Of a DNA stretch of 64,000 nt, positions 13,981-39,439 are shown piece after piece. The notes beneath the pieces are model-generated. The model ran no database searches. It was given only the letters and a program-made list of their open reading frames with translations, and was not told where the DNA came from. Where the stretch lies: assembly GCF_016772475.1 (NCBI RefSeq), contig NZ_CP068595.1:4960001-5024000 (forward strand). Reading direction: 5' to 3'. Origin of the DNA: Paenibacillus sonchi. Its GTDB lineage: Bacteria > Bacillota > Bacilli > Paenibacillales > Paenibacillaceae. The position numbers were made by a program, and so were the translations under genes. Numbering within the stretch: position 1 is the stretch's first letter; each line of letters begins with the position of its first letter.

Positions 13981-14818
13981 TTACACCACACCCTGCTTCG
14001 CCTTCATACACTTAAGATGATATATCCGCCCATACGCTTTGCCATATTGGACGATCCGGTTAATCATTCGGCGGTCCTTCAGCTTGGTGAACGGACAGGG
14101 ATCAGGGGCTGTATTTACTTCCAGAATCCATGGCTTCAGGTGCCGGTCCAGGGCAAGGTCCACACCGATTTCCTGAAGGCCGGGATAAGCCGTGCTTAGC
14201 TGCCTGGCGGATTTCACGCCAATGTCATGCATAGCTGCGATCAATGCCGTCCGCTTCTCCGGGCTGGTGTAGGGTCTTAATAATACCTCAACCGGATAAA
14301 TCGTTCCCCCTTGGCTGCCGTTGGTAACCACCTTGAGCGGATGCGCCACGCGTCCTGCCACCCCGGTAGCTTCCCACTGGCCCTTGAGATTGCGCTGCAC
14401 CATCACCCGGATATCAAAGGGGCGGCCCTTGTGAAGCAGGAGCCGGATTCCTTTTTGTACCAGATAGGACTTCCCCGGGTTTCCTTATGAATGGCCCGGT
14501 ATGCCGTATCGTAGTCAGAAAAGTTGTGTATTTGCATACCCGCCTGATAGCGGTAATTCCCACTGTCCCCGGGGCATGCTTCCCGCTGTTTTTGCTTCTC
14601 AGGCTGCTGCCGGCAGTTTTTTCAACCCGGATCACTCCCTGCCCCAAAGAACCGCAGCATGGTTTAACGTACACCATCTGATATTTTTGCAGCATCTCCT
14701 GAAGTACACTCTGGTTCATTCTTTTTGTTGCCGGGATATGACTTCTTAACTCCTGGCTCCTGGCCAGCACCCTTGTCTTCGTCAGCTTGTTGGATATCCG
14801 CCGGATCTGCTCCTTCAT
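13981..14818 (-). pseudogene. YheC/YheD family ATP-grasp protein, frameshifted
   Basis: The reading frame is broken twice, at CCCCGGGG (14567-14574) and CCCCGGG (14473-14479); adding one G at each (minus strand) gives a continuous protein of about 279 residues that aligns along its length with the intact 20535-21290 gene. Shared landmarks are MVYVKP, the GVIRVE strand, FDIRVMVQ, WEATGV.GR and WILEVNTAPDP. YheC/YheD are spore-coat-associated ATP-grasp proteins in Bacillus; ATP-grasp enzymes join a carboxylate to an amine or thiol. The gene is divergent from the SbnA fusion gene and has a CATAGACTA box 20 bases before its start. Confidence 0.75.
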
Positions 14819-14837
14819 TGTATCCCTCCGTCTCCAT

Positions 14838-14846
14838 TAGTCTATG
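14838..14846 (-). promoter_or_regulatory. Possible sigma-E/sigma-K -10 box of yheC/D gene 1
   Basis: CATAGACTA on the minus strand matches the CATANNNTA -10 consensus of mother-cell sporulation sigma factors. A start point seven bases on would leave a short leader holding the GGAGGG ribosome binding site. No convincing -35 element is seen. Confidence 0.35.
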
Positions 14847-14920
14847 TAGGCTATATTACGGGAACCGGTCGGCTTTTGACTGGGCGCCACACAATAAAAG
14901 AACACACCCTAGGCGTTCTA

Positions 14921-14929
14921 CATATGATT
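14921..14929 (+). promoter_or_regulatory. Possible sigma-E -10 box of the SbnA-fusion operon
   Basis: CATATGATT fits CATANNNTT and lies 52 bases before the proposed start codon. A good -35 element is not visible. Confidence 0.3.
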
Positions 14930-14981
14930 ATTGCAGGTGATATCTAATGAGGCTGCAGATGCGGCGGAGCAGGAGGCGGCT

Positions 14982-17165
14982 ATGATGCTGCTGGACAAAT
15001 TGCAGGATAAGGTGCTTGAAGTGATTGAATATTTTCCTTGGTACAAAGGGCTGATGGGTGGTGAGACAACGGATTATAAGCTGCAGAACCTCCCGCTGCT
15101 GACGGCGGAAATTCTTGAAACCCATTATTATACAGTTTCTGCCGATCCTTCTCTGGCTGTATACAGGACATCGGGCACAAGCTCAGGCCGCAGAAAGGCG
15201 ATATTCTACTCAGAGGAAGACGAGAAGCACTATGTTGACATCAAAACGAAGCTGTTCGGGGAGCTGATTGCAGGAAGCGGATGTACCAGAGCGATGGCGG
15301 ACATGGGTACCGGACATGCAGCGGACACGGCCCTAACCATTTTTGAACGGCTGGGGCTGGAAAAGAGTGCGATCCCCTTTGAGCTGCCGGTTGAACAGCA
15401 TATTGAACGGATTCAGGCTTTTAAGCCTGACCTGTTGTACACGATGCCCTCCATCCTTGACCATATCGTATATGCCAGCGACAATCCGCGTGCCTTTGGT
15501 CTCCGCAAAATCATTCTGGTCGGGGAAATCGCCACGCCCGAGTGGCAGCGGAATATGGCCCGCCTGTTCGGTATCGATCCGCGCGACATCACCGATACGT
15601 ATGGTTCCATTGAAATCGGCACCATCGCCTATTACTCCCATGATCTGGGCAGGTATATTTTTGCTGACGGCATTTATGCGGAAGGGATCGGGACACAGGA
15701 GTTAGGCGGGGAATTGAGGCCGCTGGGAACAGATGAAAGCATCCTGGTCCTTACCTCCAGCGTCCGCAAGATGCTGCCTGCGGTCCGGTTCGTTACTTAT
15801 GACGTGATCAGGGACTTCAGGTCCGTGATGGTTGGGGGAGTAATGAAGCAGAGCTTTGGTTCTATCGTCAAACGGGTGGGCCGGGAGCTGAAGCACGGGG
15901 AAAAAATCAGCCTGTACGATATCGAACAGGTGGTATACCGCCATCTTGAGGACGCAATCATCCGGGTTCAAGTAAGGAATAATGCGCTGACCGTATCTGT
16001 CAAAAGCAAATCTGCAGATCACACTATCCTTCCGGTCATCCGGGACGAGATCAGAGACTGCATTCCGGAAATCGGCATGATGATCAGGGGCCATCTGCTG
16101 AAGGAGATTGAGGTTATTCTGGCAGCCGGAGACGAACCGCTGGAGAGCGGGCAGGTGAAGAACAAAAAGTTATATTACCAGCAGCAGAAGGACAGGGCAG
16201 GGATCAACCTCAGCGGCGGCATTTTGGCGGCCATCGGAAATACGCCCTTAATCAGGCTGGGCAACCTGTTCCGGAACAGCGGGTTTGAGGTCTATGCCAA
16301 AATGGAGCTGCTGAACCCCGGAGGAAGCGCGAAGGACCGCCCTGCCCTGCGGATGATCCAGGAGGCTTGGAAGGCCGGAGAAATCGGGCCGGGCACTTCC
16401 ATCATTGAATCAAGCTCGGGAAATATGGCGATCAGCCTGGCCATGATCTGCAAATATCTGGGGATGCGGTTTATTAGTGTTGTAGACCCTCGGACAACCG
16501 GGACGAATCTTCAAATCCTTAAAGCACTGGATGCCAAAATAGATGTTGTGGCCGAGCCCGACCCGGACACAGGCGAGTTTTTGCCTGCCCGGCTGAAACG
16601 TGTGCAGCAGCTCCTGGCAGAGCTGCCGGGCAGCTGCTGGCTGAACCAGTATGGTAATCCGAATAATTATTTGTCCCACTACCACACGACAATGAAAGAA
16701 ATCGTAACTGCACTTGACCGGATCGATTATTTGTTTTGCAGCGTCAGTACATGCGGCACCATCCGCGGCCTTGCAGAATATGCAAGGGATCATGGCCTGA
16801 AGACCAGGATTGTGGCCGTTGACGCGGAAGGCAGCGCCATTTTTGGCGGGAATAAGAGCCGGCGGCGGTTCCCGGGACTTGGTGCCGGAATCGTGCCGCC
16901 CTTTTGCAGAACATATCTGATTGACCGGATCGTACATGTCACGGACTCCGAGATCGTTGCAGGCTGCCGGGCACTCGCACAGAACGAATCGGTCCTGGCC
17001 GGCGCATCCTCCGGGGGAATTATTGCCGCAGTGAAGCATATGGAGCAGGAAATAGCTCCGGGATCTGTCTGCGGGGTGATTGTGCATGACAAAGGAGAAC
17101 GGTACCTCGATACCGTGTACTCCGATTCATGGGTGCAGAACCAGTTCGGCCATAGCGAAAGATAA
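14982..17165 (+). CDS. Fusion of adenylate-forming (PaaK-like) domain and SbnA-type PLP synthase
   Basis: About 727 residues in two enzymes. Residues 1-400 resemble phenylacetate-CoA ligase/CoF-synthetase adenylation domains: YRTSGTSSGRRKA is the phosphate loop and DTYGSIEIG the A5-type motif. Residues 410-720 are a fold-type II PLP enzyme like SbnA (O-phosphoserine to N-(2-amino-2-carboxyethyl)-glutamate): GNTPLIRL, the PLP lysine in NPGGSAKDRP, ESSSGNMAIS and GASSGG. The start is set at the ATG at 14982 because AGGAGG is five bases upstream; a longer frame to 14931 lacks one. SbnB follows after 30 bases, so together they should make L-2,3-diaminopropionate. What the first domain activates is unknown. 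Confidence 0.85.
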   Translation: MMLLDKLQDKVLEVIEYFPWYKGLMGGETTDYKLQNLPLLTAEILETHYYTVSADPSLAVYRTSGTSSGRRKAIFYSEEDEKHYVDIKTKLFGELIAGSGCTRAMADMGTGHAADTALTIFERLGLEKSAIPFELPVEQHIERIQAFKPDLLYTMPSILDHIVYASDNPRAFGLRKIILVGEIATPEWQRNMARLFGIDPRDITDTYGSIEIGTIAYYSHDLGRYIFADGIYAEGIGTQELGGELRPLGTDESILVLTSSVRKMLPAVRFVTYDVIRDFRSVMVGGVMKQSFGSIVKRVGRELKHGEKISLYDIEQVVYRHLEDAIIRVQVRNNALTVSVKSKSADHTILPVIRDEIRDCIPEIGMMIRGHLLKEIEVILAAGDEPLESGQVKNKKLYYQQQKDRAGINLSGGILAAIGNTPLIRLGNLFRNSGFEVYAKMELLNPGGSAKDRPALRMIQEAWKAGEIGPGTSIIESSSGNMAISLAMICKYLGMRFISVVDPRTTGTNLQILKALDAKIDVVAEPDPDTGEFLPARLKRVQQLLAELPGSCWLNQYGNPNNYLSHYHTTMKEIVTALDRIDYLFCSVSTCGTIRGLAEYARDHGLKTRIVAVDAEGSAIFGGNKSRRRFPGLGAGIVPPFCRTYLIDRIVHVTDSEIVAGCRALAQNESVLAGASSGGIIAAVKHMEQEIAPGSVCGVIVHDKGERYLDTVYSDSWVQNQFGHSER

Positions 17166-17195
17166 GTTCATCACACTGGTAAAAGGAGGAGGAGC

Positions 17196-18160
17196 ATGCT
17201 GTACTTAAACGACCGGGATCTCCGGGCCGTCGGGCTGGATTGGCCTGCCTTGGTGGACTCCGTAGAATCTGCCGTGCGCATTCTTGATTCCGGTGATTAC
17301 GCACAGCCGGTTAAGCCCTACTTAAGATATAACAATCTTAACAACCGTATTATAGCAATGCCAGCTTACGTAGGTGGAGAGGTGAGCGCGGCGGGAATCA
17401 AGTGGATTTCCAGCTTCCCGGATAATCTTAAGGCCGGTCTTCCCCGGGCCCATAGCATCATCGTGCTGAATGACCCCCTTACGGGCCAGCCCTCAGCAAT
17501 CCTGAATTCACCGGTCCCCAGCCTCGTCAGGACAGCTTCCATCAGCGGGCTGATGATCCGCCACTGGCTGCAGGCGCGCCCGCCGGAGCGGATTCAGCTC
17601 GGGATTATCGGCTGGGGACCGGTTGGACAGTATCATTTTCAAATGGCTGCGGCTCTGTACGGTGAACGGATTGAGAGCATCCGGATCTATGATATCCGGG
17701 GAGCGGATTTGGCGGAAATCCCGCCTCTTTACAGAGACAGGACGGAAGCGGCCGCCACGTGGGCAGAGGTCTATTTGCATTCCAATATCTTTATCACATG
17801 TACTGTATCCAACCACCGGTATATCGATCTTCCCCTGCCCGGGGCAGTCTTCTGCTGAATGTTTCACTGCGGGATTACAAGCCGGAGGCGTTAGCGGCGG
17901 TAACTGCCGTCATCGTCGACGACTGGGATGAAGTCTGCCGGGAGAATACGGACATTGAGCGGCTCCATCTGGAACGGGGACTGACTCAGGGCGGCACGGG
18001 AAAGATTACCGATGTCGTCGTCCGGCATTGCCTGGACGATTTCGCTGAAGCCGAGCCGGTCTTTTTCTGCCCGATGGGCATGGCCGTTTTCGATATTGCT
18101 ACAGCGGTGTATTACGTGAAGAAGGCAAGGGAGAAAGGGATCGGCAACGAGCTGGAGTAG
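17196..18160 (+). pseudogene. sbnB: SbnB-type 2,3-diaminopropionate biosynthesis protein, frameshifted
   Basis: An ornithine cyclodeaminase/mu-crystallin family enzyme. SbnB oxidises N-(2-amino-2-carboxyethyl)-glutamate with NAD to release 2,3-diaminopropionate and 2-oxoglutarate. Visible are KWISSFPDN, the NAD-binding LGIIGWGPVGQYHF near residue 135 and, in the second frame, VVIVDDWDE-like and TDVV segments. The frame breaks at CCCGGGG (17838-17844); one extra G gives PLPGGSLLLNV and about 321 residues, the family length. A strong AGGAGG precedes the ATG. It directly follows the SbnA fusion gene. The neighbouring manC gene converges on it 17 bases later. Confidence 0.8.
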
Positions 18161-18177
18161 CTGAGGTTTCTGCAACA

Positions 18178-19497
18178 TTAGCTGTAGATCTTTTGCTCAT
18201 CATCTTGTCCGCAAGTTCTGATCTCTATCAGCTTCAGGGCAGTAAAAGCCCTAATCCCATGACTGTCTCCTCTGGCGATTGTAAAGATTCCGCCGGTCTG
18301 TACCGCAGCGGGCAGCCCGTTCAGCATGATTTCTCCTTGACCGGACACGATGACCCAGCTTTTGCCGGTATGCTGACATTGCAATTCAGGCAGGTCATGG
18401 CCCGGCAGCAGGGATAAGGCAAGGGTCAGAATAAGCTCCGGTCCGCTGAAGGTCCGGTCGAGGACGGTATAGCTTCCCCATCCGGTTTCCCCATACCTCG
18501 GTTCCTCTGCAGCCTGTTGCAGGATATCTTTGATGGCATTTGCTTCCCCTTTGCCGGCAATCAGAATGCCCTCTGGACTTCCTGCAGCGATAATGCCGGA
18601 TACCCCGATCACATGCAGCGGAATCCCCAGGTCGTTAACAATATGAGTATCCCGGGAGCTGCCCCAAATCCCGCCTTCCCCAATTACCGGATCGGTCAGG
18701 CGCGCGGTCATTGCATCCCAGCTGCCCAAATCGCGCCATTCTCCTTCATGCCTCAGCACGACAGCTTTCCGGCTGCGCTCCGCCACTTCCTGGTCGAAGC
18801 TGCGGACCGGGAATCCGGGGTACAGATCTGTAAATGCAGCGGGTTCAGCAGGCAGACCCATGCGCTCCAAATGTGACAGCATGAAGCTTAGGCGAAAAGC
18901 AAAAATGCCGCAGTTCCATAATGCCTGCTGCTGTATAAGCTCCACGGCCCTGGCGCTGTCCGGCTTTTCCTGAAACGACAGGACGGGGGCATAGGCTCCC
19001 GGTCCAGCGCTCCCCGGGATGATATAGCCGTACTGGTCCGAAGGGTGAGTGGGCCTTGTCCCAAGCAGGACAAGTTCGGCCTGTGAATCGGCCAGAATGT
19101 CTGGGAACCGGTGAAAACAATCGAAGAAGGCATCATCCGTGTACATATCGGCTGGAGCGACACATAACGTGTCTTCCGGTTTGGCTTTTCCTGCGGAATG
19201 CAAATAGAGCGCCCCGAGCGCGGCTGCTGTGAATGTGCCCCGTTTGTGGGGCTCTCCAATCACCGGATACCGGTTCCGGGTGTGCCGCCGCGTCAGGGCC
19301 AGCTGATCCTCATGTGCGACGAACAATGCCGATGCACCGAGACCGGCATGATCCAATTGGCGGCATACCCGCCCGATCATGGACTCCTTGCCCCCATCCG
19401 GTGCGGGAAGCAGCTCCAGAAACATTTTGGAACGGATGCGGCCCGACAGCGGCCACAGCCGCTGGCCGGAACCGCCGCATAGAAGAATGGTATGCAC
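18178..19497 (-). CDS. Mannose-1-phosphate guanylyltransferase-like protein
   Basis: A 439-residue nucleotidyltransferase. It opens with MHTILLCGGSGQRLWPLS, the nucleotide-binding loop of sugar-phosphate nucleotidyltransferases, followed by CVAPADMYTDD and GYIIPG, then FQEKPD and WNCGIFAF, all typical of ManC. A C-terminal part (about 340-439) has cupin-like strands (WVIVSGQGEIMLNG), as in two-domain ManC/ManA-type proteins. It would make GDP-mannose from mannose-1-phosphate and GTP. It follows the putative glycosyltransferase gene by 14 bases on the same strand, so GDP-mannose may feed that enzyme. The lysine and signature loop are slightly divergent (IRSKMFLEL instead of YPKQFL), so the sugar is not certain. 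Confidence 0.8.
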   Translation of the reverse strand: MHTILLCGGSGQRLWPLSGRIRSKMFLELLPAPDGGKESMIGRVCRQLDHAGLGASALFVAHEDQLALTRRHTRNRYPVIGEPHKRGTFTAAALGALYLHSAGKAKPEDTLCVAPADMYTDDAFFDCFHRFPDILADSQAELVLLGTRPTHPSDQYGYIIPGSAGPGAYAPVLSFQEKPDSARAVELIQQQALWNCGIFAFRLSFMLSHLERMGLPAEPAAFTDLYPGFPVRSFDQEVAERSRKAVVLRHEGEWRDLGSWDAMTARLTDPVIGEGGIWGSSRDTHIVNDLGIPLHVIGVSGIIAAGSPEGILIAGKGEANAIKDILQQAAEEPRYGETGWGSYTVLDRTFSGPELILTLALSLLPGHDLPELQCQHTGKSWVIVSGQGEIMLNGLPAAVQTGGIFTIARGDSHGIRAFTALKLIEIRTCGQDDEQKIYS

Positions 19498-19511
19498 AGC
19501 TGTCTGCCTCC

Positions 19512-20324
19512 TTAGTGCCTGGCTGGAGTGGAGTATCCTTTGCGCTGATGGAAGGAAAGTGAACGGAACGTGCGGGCAAGCCGCAGAGTCTGCGCTTTCC
19601 CCAGAGACGCAAATGAGCTTTTCAGCGATTTATTATGGGCAGTCTTCAAAATTACAGAGCTGCTGTCTCCGCTGTACACATAATTGGCGTAGGTTTCGTA
19701 CTCTGAGAAGCCAAACTGCTTCTTCTTGTCGATACTGCGGATAATGGCGGCGTGCCAGGACATGCCGTGGCGGTCTTCGATTTTTCGTTTTAATCCGGCC
19801 AGCTTTGCCTTCTCAAACAGCATGTAATGGGTGACAAATGATCTGGGAGCGGGCGGCCGGGTACCCATCAGCTTCCGGTAGGTGCGGAAATATTCCGGCT
19901 GGCTCCAGCTGCGGCAGTAGAAAATGCTGCTGTTCCCGGAACGGAAACGGTGGGGACGGATCAGTACAGTATCGGCATCAATAACCAGAAAATAGCTCTC
20001 CCGGCAGATATGATCCCCGTTCATCTTCAGCAGCTGCTGATACAGCCAGCCTGACCGGTTCCACCGGGCGGAGGAATAACGGATGTCCTTTTTGGTAAAC
20101 GGCAGCACACGGGTTTCGTCGACAAAGATACAGCTTTTCCGTGCGCACAGAGACCTGATTTTGCTGCTGTTCGGCGAGACAATGTAAATATTGCTGATCG
20201 GATGGCGGACATAGCGGCGAAGGCTGTCTATCACATGAGGGAGGGTTGCCAGATCTTTTTCAATGGCCGGGATCAGGACATCGATTGCCGGCCCGCTGTT
20301 CGTTAAGCCTGATATTGCTGACAT
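19512..20324 (-). CDS. Putative glycosyltransferase (DUF6492-like)
   Basis: A soluble protein of 270 residues with a GT-A-like layout: IDVLIPAIEKDL at the N-terminus, VIDADTVLIRP as the DxD metal/nucleotide-sugar motif near residue 115, and FSEYETYANYVY near 205, a motif typical of the DUF6492 group. The start at 20324 is preferred because GGAG lies eight bases upstream; the open frame extends six codons further. It is the first gene of a two-gene unit with the ManC-like enzyme and has a CATACATTA box upstream. I infer transfer of a sugar, perhaps mannose, onto a spore or cell-surface acceptor. Confidence 0.6.
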   Translation of the reverse strand: MSAISGLTNSGPAIDVLIPAIEKDLATLPHVIDSLRRYVRHPISNIYIVSPNSSKIRSLCARKSCIFVDETRVLPFTKKDIRYSSARWNRSGWLYQQLLKMNGDHICRESYFLVIDADTVLIRPHRFRSGNSSIFYCRSWSQPEYFRTYRKLMGTRPPAPRSFVTHYMLFEKAKLAGLKRKIEDRHGMSWHAAIIRSIDKKKQFGFSEYETYANYVYSGDSSSVILKTAHNKSLKSSFASLGKAQTLRLARTFRSLSFHQRKGYSTPARH

Positions 20325-20368
20325 AGCTTCATCTCCGGACACATATTGACACTTAAGGCGTCTGCAAC

Positions 20369-20377
20369 TAATGTATG
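20369..20377 (-). promoter_or_regulatory. Possible sigma-E/sigma-K -10 box of the glycosyltransferase-manC unit
   Basis: CATACATTA on the minus strand matches CATANNNTA, 45 bases before the start codon. Confidence 0.35.
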
Positions 20378-20467
20378 CTGCTGCAAGCGTTCAGGACCGG
20401 GCAAGGGCCGCAGAAAAGTTAATCTTCCCTACGGGATAGATGCTTAATTCAACAAGGGCTGCTTCTG

Positions 20468-20476
20468 CATAGGATA
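20468..20476 (+). promoter_or_regulatory. Possible sigma-E/sigma-K -10 box of yheC/D gene 2
   Basis: CATAGGATA matches CATANNNTA, 59 bases before the GTG start of the intact ATP-grasp gene. Confidence 0.35.
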
Positions 20477-20534
20477 CAGTGACGTTGTATATCAGGGAGG
20501 GCGCAATGCCCTTACCGGATGGGAGAGTGCGAGC

Positions 20535-21290
20535 GTGAAGGCAAACACAGCTAACTTAGTGCAGAGCAAATGGGTGAAGACAAAGCTGCTGCTGCGCAGC
20601 AATGCGGTCAGACCTTTTATCCCGGATACCCGGAAATTCTCCAGACGCAATCTGGAGGAGATGATTCGCAGCTATGGAATGGTCTATGTCAAGCCCGAAC
20701 GGGGAACCTATGGCAACGGGGTTATACGGGCCGAGCGGGGGGAGCACAAGGGCTACACGTACCAGTATGAGGAAACGGTCCGCCATTTTGATACCTTTGA
20801 AGCCTTTCACAAAAGCCTGGCCCAAAAAACAGGCAAAAGAAGTTATTTGATTCAGAAAGGCATCCACCTGCTGAAGCATAACCGCCGCCGCTTTGATATC
20901 CGGGTGATGGTGCAGCTAAGCCCGAAGGGAGTCTGGGAAGCTACCGGAATCATCGGACGGCTGGGCCATCCGCGCAAAATTGTTACGAATTACCACAGCG
21001 GCGGCAGGCCGATGGCGATTGAAACCCTGCTCTCGACCCATCTGACCCGCCAACAGCTTGCACATCTGACCGGGGAATTGGATCTGCTTGGCACCCGCAT
21101 GGCGGCCCATATGCAGAAAACCTATCCCCGCATCCGCAAAATCGGCGTAGATGTCGGCCTGGACCGGTCACTGACACCTTGGGTAATTGAAGTGAATATG
21201 AACCCCGACCCTTATATCTTCAATCAGCTGAAGGATAAATCCATGTACAGGAAGGTTATGAAATACCGGCGTTATTGGATGGAAAAGTAA
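20535..21290 (+). CDS. YheC/YheD family ATP-grasp protein
   Basis: A 251-residue ATP-grasp ligase-like protein. Landmarks are MVYVKPERGTYGNGVIR (nucleotide-binding strand and glycine-rich loop, about residues 50-66), FDIRVMVQLS near 120, and the metal-site segment WVIEVNMNPDPYIF near 220. Homologues YheC and YheD associate with the Bacillus spore coat; no chemical activity is established for them. The GTG start has GGGAGAG upstream. It is homologous to the broken gene at 13981-14818 on the other side of the diaminopropionate genes, so the cluster is flanked by two related ligase-like genes. A 17-base perfect hairpin follows. Confidence 0.87.
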   Translation: MKANTANLVQSKWVKTKLLLRSNAVRPFIPDTRKFSRRNLEEMIRSYGMVYVKPERGTYGNGVIRAERGEHKGYTYQYEETVRHFDTFEAFHKSLAQKTGKRSYLIQKGIHLLKHNRRRFDIRVMVQLSPKGVWEATGIIGRLGHPRKIVTNYHSGGRPMAIETLLSTHLTRQQLAHLTGELDLLGTRMAAHMQKTYPRIRKIGVDVGLDRSLTPWVIEVNMNPDPYIFNQLKDKSMYRKVMKYRRYWMEK

Positions 21291-37393: not shown

Positions 37394-37415
37394 TAGTAAA
37401 CTAAAGAATATTGTC

Positions 37416-37560
37416 TTTTTCGCTGAATTCTGTAAAAGAAGCGGGGGAACCACCGCGTGTGCAGTTTTGCAACTGGCATGCCAAGGGGTGAATCTCGAAC
37501 ATTCGAGTAGGGCTACTCTTCAGGCCCGAATCCGTCAGCTAACCCCGTAAGCGTAGAAGA
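37416..37560 (+). ncRNA. c-di-AMP riboswitch (ydaO-yuaA)
   Basis: The conserved blocks appear in order: GCGGGGGAACC (37441-37451), GGGGTGAATC (37485-37494), a GGGCTACTCTTCAGGCCC hairpin, and CCGAATCCGTCAGCTAACC then CCGTAAGCGT (37526-37554). A weak P1 can form between CGCT at 37421 and AGCG at the 3' end. The aptamer ends within about ten bases of the GAGGAG of the next gene and no terminator hairpin lies between, so control may be at translation. It follows the Mrp operon and precedes an alpha/beta hydrolase. Confidence 0.9.
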
Positions 37561-37575
37561 GAGGAGACGAATGGA

Positions 37576-39220: not shown

Positions 39221-39404
39221 AAAGAGACCCTTAACAAGGGTCTCTGGTTATGTGAAATAACTAAAAAAGCAGACCCGTCCACTACTGACGAGGTTAGCTG
39301 ACGGACTCGGGTAAGATGGTACCCTAACATTCTGATGCTTAATGATTCGCCCCAATTGACTGGTTCCCCCGCTTTCCAGCTGAAAATGCTGGGAATTAAG
39401 CGCT
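39221..39404 (-). ncRNA. c-di-AMP riboswitch with terminator, minus strand
   Basis: Read on the minus strand the ydaO blocks appear in order: GCGGGGGAACC, GGGGCGAATC, a GGGTA/TACCC hairpin, and GTCCGTCAGCTAACCTCGT. A perfect terminator follows, AGAGACCCTT/AAGGGTCTCT with TTTTTG (39219-39245). Its own promoter lies at 39410-39439. Downstream on this strand is only the decayed KamA-type gene. The antiporter gene to the right is on the other strand and is not controlled by this RNA in the ordinary way. Confidence 0.87.
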
Positions 39405-39406
39405 GT

Positions 39407-39439
39407 TAGAGTATACTCTATAAAGTTTGTTAAAGTCAA
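39407..39439 (-). promoter_or_regulatory. Promoter of the minus-strand riboswitch in a perfect palindrome
   Basis: TTGACT (39439-39434) and TATACT (39415-39410) are 18 bases apart on the minus strand; the start point would fall at the aptamer's 5' end. The -10 lies inside TAGAGTATACTCTA, a 14-base perfect palindrome, so a second TATACT faces the antiporter gene. Confidence 0.6.

Follow-up and report, generated by a model that had tools for sequence, protein, structure and literature searches.

We analyzed a stretch of 64,000 nucleotides from Paenibacillus sonchi (contig NZ_CP068595.1 of assembly GCF_016772475.1, positions 4,960,001 to 5,024,000 of the forward strand; hereafter, the window), which lies in a genome of 7.78 Mb. 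An earlier note, made from the sequence alone, had described positions 13981-21290 as a candidate spore-associated system in which two YheC/YheD ATP-grasp genes flank genes for the synthesis of L-2,3-diaminopropionate (Dap), together with a ManC-like and a glycosyltransferase-like gene. All six gene regions were found, each in the family that the note had named, but yheCD1, the first YheC/YheD gene, lies on the minus strand and is frameshifted, sbnB is also frameshifted, and the glycosyltransferase-like gene (DUF6492) spans 19512-20342 rather than 19512-20324. Four genes make up the core: a short yheCD gene, a ligase gene divergent from it, sbnA (here fused to the ligase), and sbnB. Their features in the window are as follows.

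13981..14818, minus strand: yheCD1, short YheC/YheD-type ATP-grasp ligase gene, core; PF14398 matches both pieces
14852..14860, minus strand: putative -10 element of the yheCD1 promoter, CGTAATATA, sigma-K-like, fitting C[AG]TAnnnTA; -35 unclear
14900..14930, plus strand: candidate promoter of sigma-K type for the ligase operon, made up of GAAC at 14900-14903, 17-nt spacer, CATATGATTA at 14921-14930
14982..16205, plus strand: N-terminal domain of the fusion, a DdaG-like adenylate-forming ligase of PaaK fold; from NF041596, identity to DdaG, and predicted fold
16206..17165, plus strand: C-terminal domain of the fusion, SbnA, a pyridoxal phosphate enzyme of Dap synthesis; TIGR03945
17196..18160, plus strand: sbnB, frameshifted gene for the second enzyme of Dap synthesis; TIGR03944 matches both pieces

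The fused ligase-SbnA gene most likely starts at the ATG at 14982, ahead of which stands an AGGAGG. Both the fusion and this start agree with the adenylation domain fused to SbnA (14982-17165) of the earlier note, which had seen neither the two frameshifts nor that the domain resembles DdaG, a resemblance that suggests a possible chemistry for the module. The domain matches NF041596 (DdaG, fumarate-diaminopropionate ligase) with 273.9 bits over residues 34-395; as the equivalog cut-off is 700, we describe the ligase as one that probably works like DdaG and do not claim membership for it. DdaG is the closest characterized relative of the ligase, and an alignment with the Pantoea vagans protein covers 364 columns at 38% identity. 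The ligase profile matches PaaK-type chains, and PaaK-type ligases also give the best structural alignments to the predicted model (predicted local distance difference test score [pLDDT] 80). NatL2, AjiA1, ClxA, and McbA are listed as well; McbA is titled an amide bond synthetase, and the roles of the other three are ones we assume from general knowledge. The SbnA domain scores 404.5 bits with TIGR03945, over the cut-off of 349.95.

Relative to the reference genome G028, whose fused protein is 98% identical and whose DNA is 96.9% identical across 17.6 kb, the genic single-base frameshifting indels are two in yheCD1, one in sbnB, and one in an ATP-binding cassette transporter gene. The split leaves open reading frames at 14414-14818 and 13981-14406 for yheCD1, and at 17196-17858 and 17759-18160 for sbnB. 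In G028 (locus L055, 279 amino acids) and in Paenibacillus jilunlii yheCD1 is unbroken, as is sbnB (321 amino acids) in loci L009 and L055. P. jilunlii is the nearest named relative, with a fused protein 93% identical (among the best 120 of 451 matches). Both yheCD1 pieces exceed the PF14398 cut-off, and the intact ortholog scores 204.1 bits. The two pieces of the broken sbnB give 198.8 and 98.7 bits with TIGR03944 (cut-off 326.9), and the SbnB of the Ammoniphilus module gives 327.0, just above that cut-off. The frameshifts may reflect decay of the module in this strain or errors of assembly.

Conservation of the core

When 392 genomes of the order Paenibacillales were searched with the ligase alignment, 145 of them, from 30 of 49 genera, had a match (E 1e-60 or better); the counts were 11 of 398 genomes for the class and two of 398 for the phylum sample, both from the genus of the window and one of them the genome of the window itself. 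Outside Pantoea, the ligase was found in Paenibacillales and two further families of Bacilli in the searches run, one of which covers the best 120 of 451 matches; among those 120, obtained with the fused protein, numerous Paenibacillus carry the fusion, and unfused relatives come from Paenibacillaceae.

We compared 109 ligase loci, one per genome, of which 103 come from the 145 ligase-positive genomes of the order (42 of these lie outside the set) and six from other searches. At 108 of the 109, yheCD adjoins the ligase gene and is divergent from it; the exception, L117, has only 97 bases of contig ahead of the ligase. The arrangement is thus far beyond chance. It is not unique to this genome, and the proposed siderophore-independent link between Dap and YheC/YheD genes in spore formers is borne out, although only the first of the two flanking YheC/YheD genes proves to be a conserved partner. 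Of the named loci, 11 have an upstream flank (L015 and L021 are without one), and every one of the 11 has yheCD directly divergent from the ligase; in Ammoniphilus resinae (L020) the genes are rearranged, with yheCD, sbnA, and sbnB in a single run and the ligase divergent.

The Dap genes follow closely. sbnA lies after the ligase at 107 of the 109 loci, fused at 28 and separate at 79, and sbnB is present at 99. Of the 10 genomes in which sbnB is not local, eight (G353, G446, G473, G558, G592, G619, G675, and G756) carry a module-type SbnB elsewhere (47-52% identity to module SbnBs). G446 (L073) has ligase and YheCD at the site and both sbnA and sbnB elsewhere in the genome, so that at this locus, as at L072, the ligase-YheCD pairing persists where sbnA and sbnB are missing. 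In G437, outside the 109, sbnA and a module-type sbnB also lie away from the ligase. When gene families were counted at 40 loci (the window and 39 others), the core families were present at 36 to 39, response regulators at 17, histidine kinases at 10, and ManC and DUF6492 at seven; beyond those, no family occurred at more than six of the 40.

Residues K52, D136, R138, D221, E234, and N236, which we take to be ATP-grasp active-site residues, are invariant across 20 YheCD homologs, and the P. jilunlii ortholog has a predicted ATP-grasp fold (pLDDT 89). Its closest neighbor by Foldseek is tubulin tyrosine ligase; by VIA-align, Ddl, LysX/ArgX, and RimK are closest, followed narrowly by carbamoyl phosphate synthetase. 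RimK, LysX/ArgX, and tubulin tyrosine ligase are enzymes that ligate amino acids to the termini or side chains of proteins. YheCD resembles them in its modeled fold, but nothing in it aligns with their N-terminal part. In a tree, with the B. subtilis proteins left outside it, the short YheCD of the module separates from the tandem YheC/D paralogs of this genome.

Promoter signals between yheCD and the ligase gene

Promoter patterns were scored in the 108 yheCD-ligase intergenic regions and in dinucleotide shuffles of them (60 rounds). The consensus letters are those we take to represent sigma-K promoters, with yabG and dpaA genes from Paenibacillales as calibration. In B. subtilis yabG and dpaA are sigma-K-dependent, and spoIVA is sigma-E-dependent. 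Toward the ligase, GAAC-N14-17-CATA is present in 83 of 108 regions (shuffles 1.4, maximum 4) and the strict pattern AC-N15-18-CATAnnnTA in 47 (shuffles 1.4, maximum 5), compared with three and five, respectively, of the upstream regions of 377 other genes from the 40 loci. The looser AC-N-CATA is found in 99 of 108. Of the 94 occurrences counted, 82 have a spacer of 16 or 17 nt; excerpts of a study of B. subtilis give sigma-K promoters as 5-nt -35 and 10-nt -10 elements placed 14-16 nt apart (PMC517825).

Among the controls from genomes of the order, yabG has GAAC-N-CATA in 19 of 27 regions, AC-N-CATA in all 27, and the strict pattern in eight; dpaA has them in 0, 29, and four of 30; and spoIVA in 0, eight, and 0 of 30. 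A sigma-E-like pattern, found in 28 of 30 spoIVA regions, occurs in one of the 108 ligase regions. Because related sequences are not independent, the intergenic regions were also counted as 41 clusters; most members carry AC-N-CATA in 33 of these and GAAC-N-CATA in 24. Toward yheCD, C[AG]TAnnnTA occurs in 76 regions (shuffles 10.8), and in 27 (shuffles 1.7) with an AC 15-18 nt before it. As far as promoter letters can tell, the assignment of the ligase promoter to the sigma-K type is solid, as is the linkage of yheCD, ligase, and Dap genes. The spore association that the earlier note proposed for this link thus gains predicted late-sporulation signals at the ligase.

Neighboring genes

Three further genes, which are not part of the core, and one promoter element lie beyond sbnB.

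18178..19497, minus strand: ManC-like nucleotidyltransferase; PF00483, with TIGR01479 below its cut-off
19512..20342, minus strand: DUF6492 protein, possibly a glycosyltransferase; PF20102
20468-20476: CATAGGATA, sigma-K-like -10 element of the second YheC/YheD gene
20535..21290, plus strand: second short YheC/YheD gene, a single open frame; PF14398, 197.7 bits

Since the ManC-like and DUF6492 genes, on the minus strand, converge with sbnB, the region is not one operon. These two genes adjoin the module directly in the window, L009, L055, and L056, and a second short YheCD accompanies them in five of the seven loci that have them. They form a block divergent from the short YheCD gene in the window (18178-21290), L009, L055, L056, and L077, and stand as a ManC-DUF6492 pair in L017 and L018. 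Within this second block, CATAnnnTA is found toward YheCD in five of five loci and toward DUF6492 in six of seven (L077 has other letters), with no recognized -35.

Other YheC/YheD genes occur in the same genome. A run of them (G000:C1:4591141-4615323; L001-L005) lies far from the module type in the tree, and a short one between gyrB- and gyrA-like genes, so named from their translations (G000:C1:1876785-1877597; L008), groups with the second YheCD of the window. The window also contains two cyclic di-AMP riboswitches (RF00379), at 37411-37568 on the plus strand (111.6 bits) and 39268-39412 on the minus strand (68.9 bits).

A proposed Dap pathway of the sporangium

What might such a module make? 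The closest parallel is dapdiamide synthesis by the Pantoea dda cluster in which, according to the portions of PMC12568646 consulted, DdaG forms a first amide bond and the ATP-grasp enzyme DdaF a second. The module likewise combines SbnA/SbnB-type Dap synthesis, a DdaG-like ligase, and an ATP-grasp enzyme; unlike the dda cluster, it has YheCD rather than a DdaF-like protein as the ATP-grasp partner and a promoter of apparent sigma-K type. We consider it somewhat probable (about 0.6) that the core is a late mother-cell pathway in which an N-acyl-Dap is made and then coupled by YheCD to a spore protein or amino acid. SbnA and SbnB would make Dap; the DdaG-like ligase would adenylate a small carboxylic acid, for which fumarate is our best guess, and couple it to an amino group of Dap, which the ligase-SbnA fusion might hand over directly. 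YheCD, as ATP-grasp ligases do, would then form a second amide bond, between acyl-Dap and an amino acid or protein. This chemistry is a reasoned guess from the dapdiamide parallel. As no further conserved gene lies beside the core, there is no sign of an exporter or resistance gene of its own; for this reason, and given the sigma-K-type promoters, we would expect the product to remain within the sporangium and finish inside the spore or on its surface.

Known spore biology offers points of comparison. According to the same excerpts of the B. subtilis study, yheC and yheD belong to the sigma-E regulon and are raised by SpoIIID, and sulfolactate, a small molecule, forms a major part of the spore, with late expression of its genes (yitBA-yisZ, yitCD) in the mother cell (PMC517825). 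The proposed pathway would resemble that of sulfolactate in being a late mother-cell small-molecule pathway for the spore. The enzymes and chemistry of sulfolactate synthesis are unrelated to those of the module. With B. subtilis YheC/YheD the module protein shares the PF14398 ATP-grasp family (the B. subtilis control genome gives matches) and a link to sporulation, but it is short, is encoded beside Dap genes, and has sigma-K-type rather than sigma-E signals.

Several observations weigh against a late mother-cell pathway of this kind. With two core genes frameshifted, the module is probably inactive in this strain, unless these are assembly errors. The ligase falls well short of the DdaG equivalog cut-off, and since YheCD has no BLASTP similarity to Pantoea DdaF, from which it also differs in Pfam family, the dapdiamide parallel for the second step is a functional analogy only. 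G049 is without a module-type SbnB, since the one it has belongs to a second sbnA-sbnB pair and is ~32% like that type, and G206 (L072), without sbnA and sbnB at the site, has genome-wide only a weak SbnB match (E 4.8e-5). As for the promoter, AC-N-CATA is loose, being present in 64 of the 377 background genes and in those eight spoIVA regions; 25 of the 108 ligase upstream regions are without GAAC-N14-17-CATA and fewer than half (the 47 above) have the strict pattern, which only a minority of the yabG and dpaA controls have too; dpaA never has GAAC; and the -10 of the ligase in this strain is one base off strict CATAnnnTA.

An alternative, which we think unlikely, is that the product is a soluble antibiotic of the dapdiamide kind, an N-acyl-Dap dipeptide that the late mother cell would make and free at lysis, so protecting the surroundings of the spore. 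The kinship of the ligase to DdaG fits such a product, as does the presence of two amide-forming enzyme types, which parts of PMC12568646 describe for both dapdiamide and E-64 assembly. Moreover, N3-fumaroyl-type Dap compounds inactivate glucosamine-6-phosphate synthase through Michael addition to Cys1, as reported in excerpts of PMC9272926. However, only the core families are conserved at the loci: in tblastn searches of the 40 loci at E 1e-5, the Pantoea dioxygenase, AsnB-type amidotransferase, and DdaF matched none. The Pantoea nonribosomal peptide synthetase gene and hydrolase matched only L074 (G449), at 30% and 25% identity and close to the ligase module there. In our judgment, 145 of 392 genomes is also a wide distribution for an antibiotic. 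The same Michael acceptor underlies a further idea, to which we give a distinctly small chance: that late in sporulation YheCD, like RimK or tubulin tyrosine ligase, modifies spore-surface proteins with an N-fumaroyl-type Dap. Since a fumaramide is a Michael acceptor, such a Dap tag could react with thiols or amines and so cross-link the spore coat.

The remaining explanations seem to us very improbable. That YheCD1 is merely a coat protein, sharing its divergent promoter region with a Dap pathway to which it is unrelated, would accord with B. subtilis YheD, which in the passages of PMC7911427 consulted surrounds the spore and binds itself and has no determined function, but it sits poorly with a pairing that is kept at 108 of 109 loci, including the rearranged Ammoniphilus locus and both L072 and L073, and with the invariance of residues presumed to be catalytic. 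Comparably small is the chance that, as the earlier note had suggested, two YheC/YheD enzymes attach Dap to a glycan that contains mannose and is produced with the help of ManC and the DUF6492 protein. The position of these genes directly beside the module in four loci and the conserved CATAnnnTA sequences of the second block would suit it; however, the genes accompany the module at only seven of 40 loci, and the ManC-like protein scores far below the TIGR01479 (GMP_PMI) cut-off (142.4 of 372.95 bits). Even less probable is a siderophore pathway like that of staphyloferrin B, with synthetases encoded elsewhere. The module shares SbnA and SbnB with the sbn operon, but no IucA/IucC match exists anywhere in the genome of the window (E 0.001), so that completion of the pathway by synthetases elsewhere, part of what the earlier note had named as refuting its model, did not turn up, and the ligase promoter is of apparent sigma-K type. 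IucA/IucC occurs in three of 30 related genomes (G039, G044, and G047), of which only G044 carries the ligase; in G039 and G047 it lies ~1.6 kb from sbnA, among listed sbnA matches without a ligase match, as expected of a siderophore cluster.

Full-text searching, in the portions of text it returned, turned up no literature linking Dap, YheC/YheD, and sporulation. If the proposed late mother-cell pathway is correct, more than one-third of the sampled Paenibacillales genomes (the 145 of 392 with the ligase) would devote a late-sporulation pathway to a compound that the same searching did not find described in spores. If YheCD instead tags spore-surface proteins, the protein modification and the coat cross-link would each be of a new kind. 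A ligase with a characterized relative, a defined precursor, and a clean promoter signal together make the function of a YheC/YheD-type ATP-grasp protein assayable.
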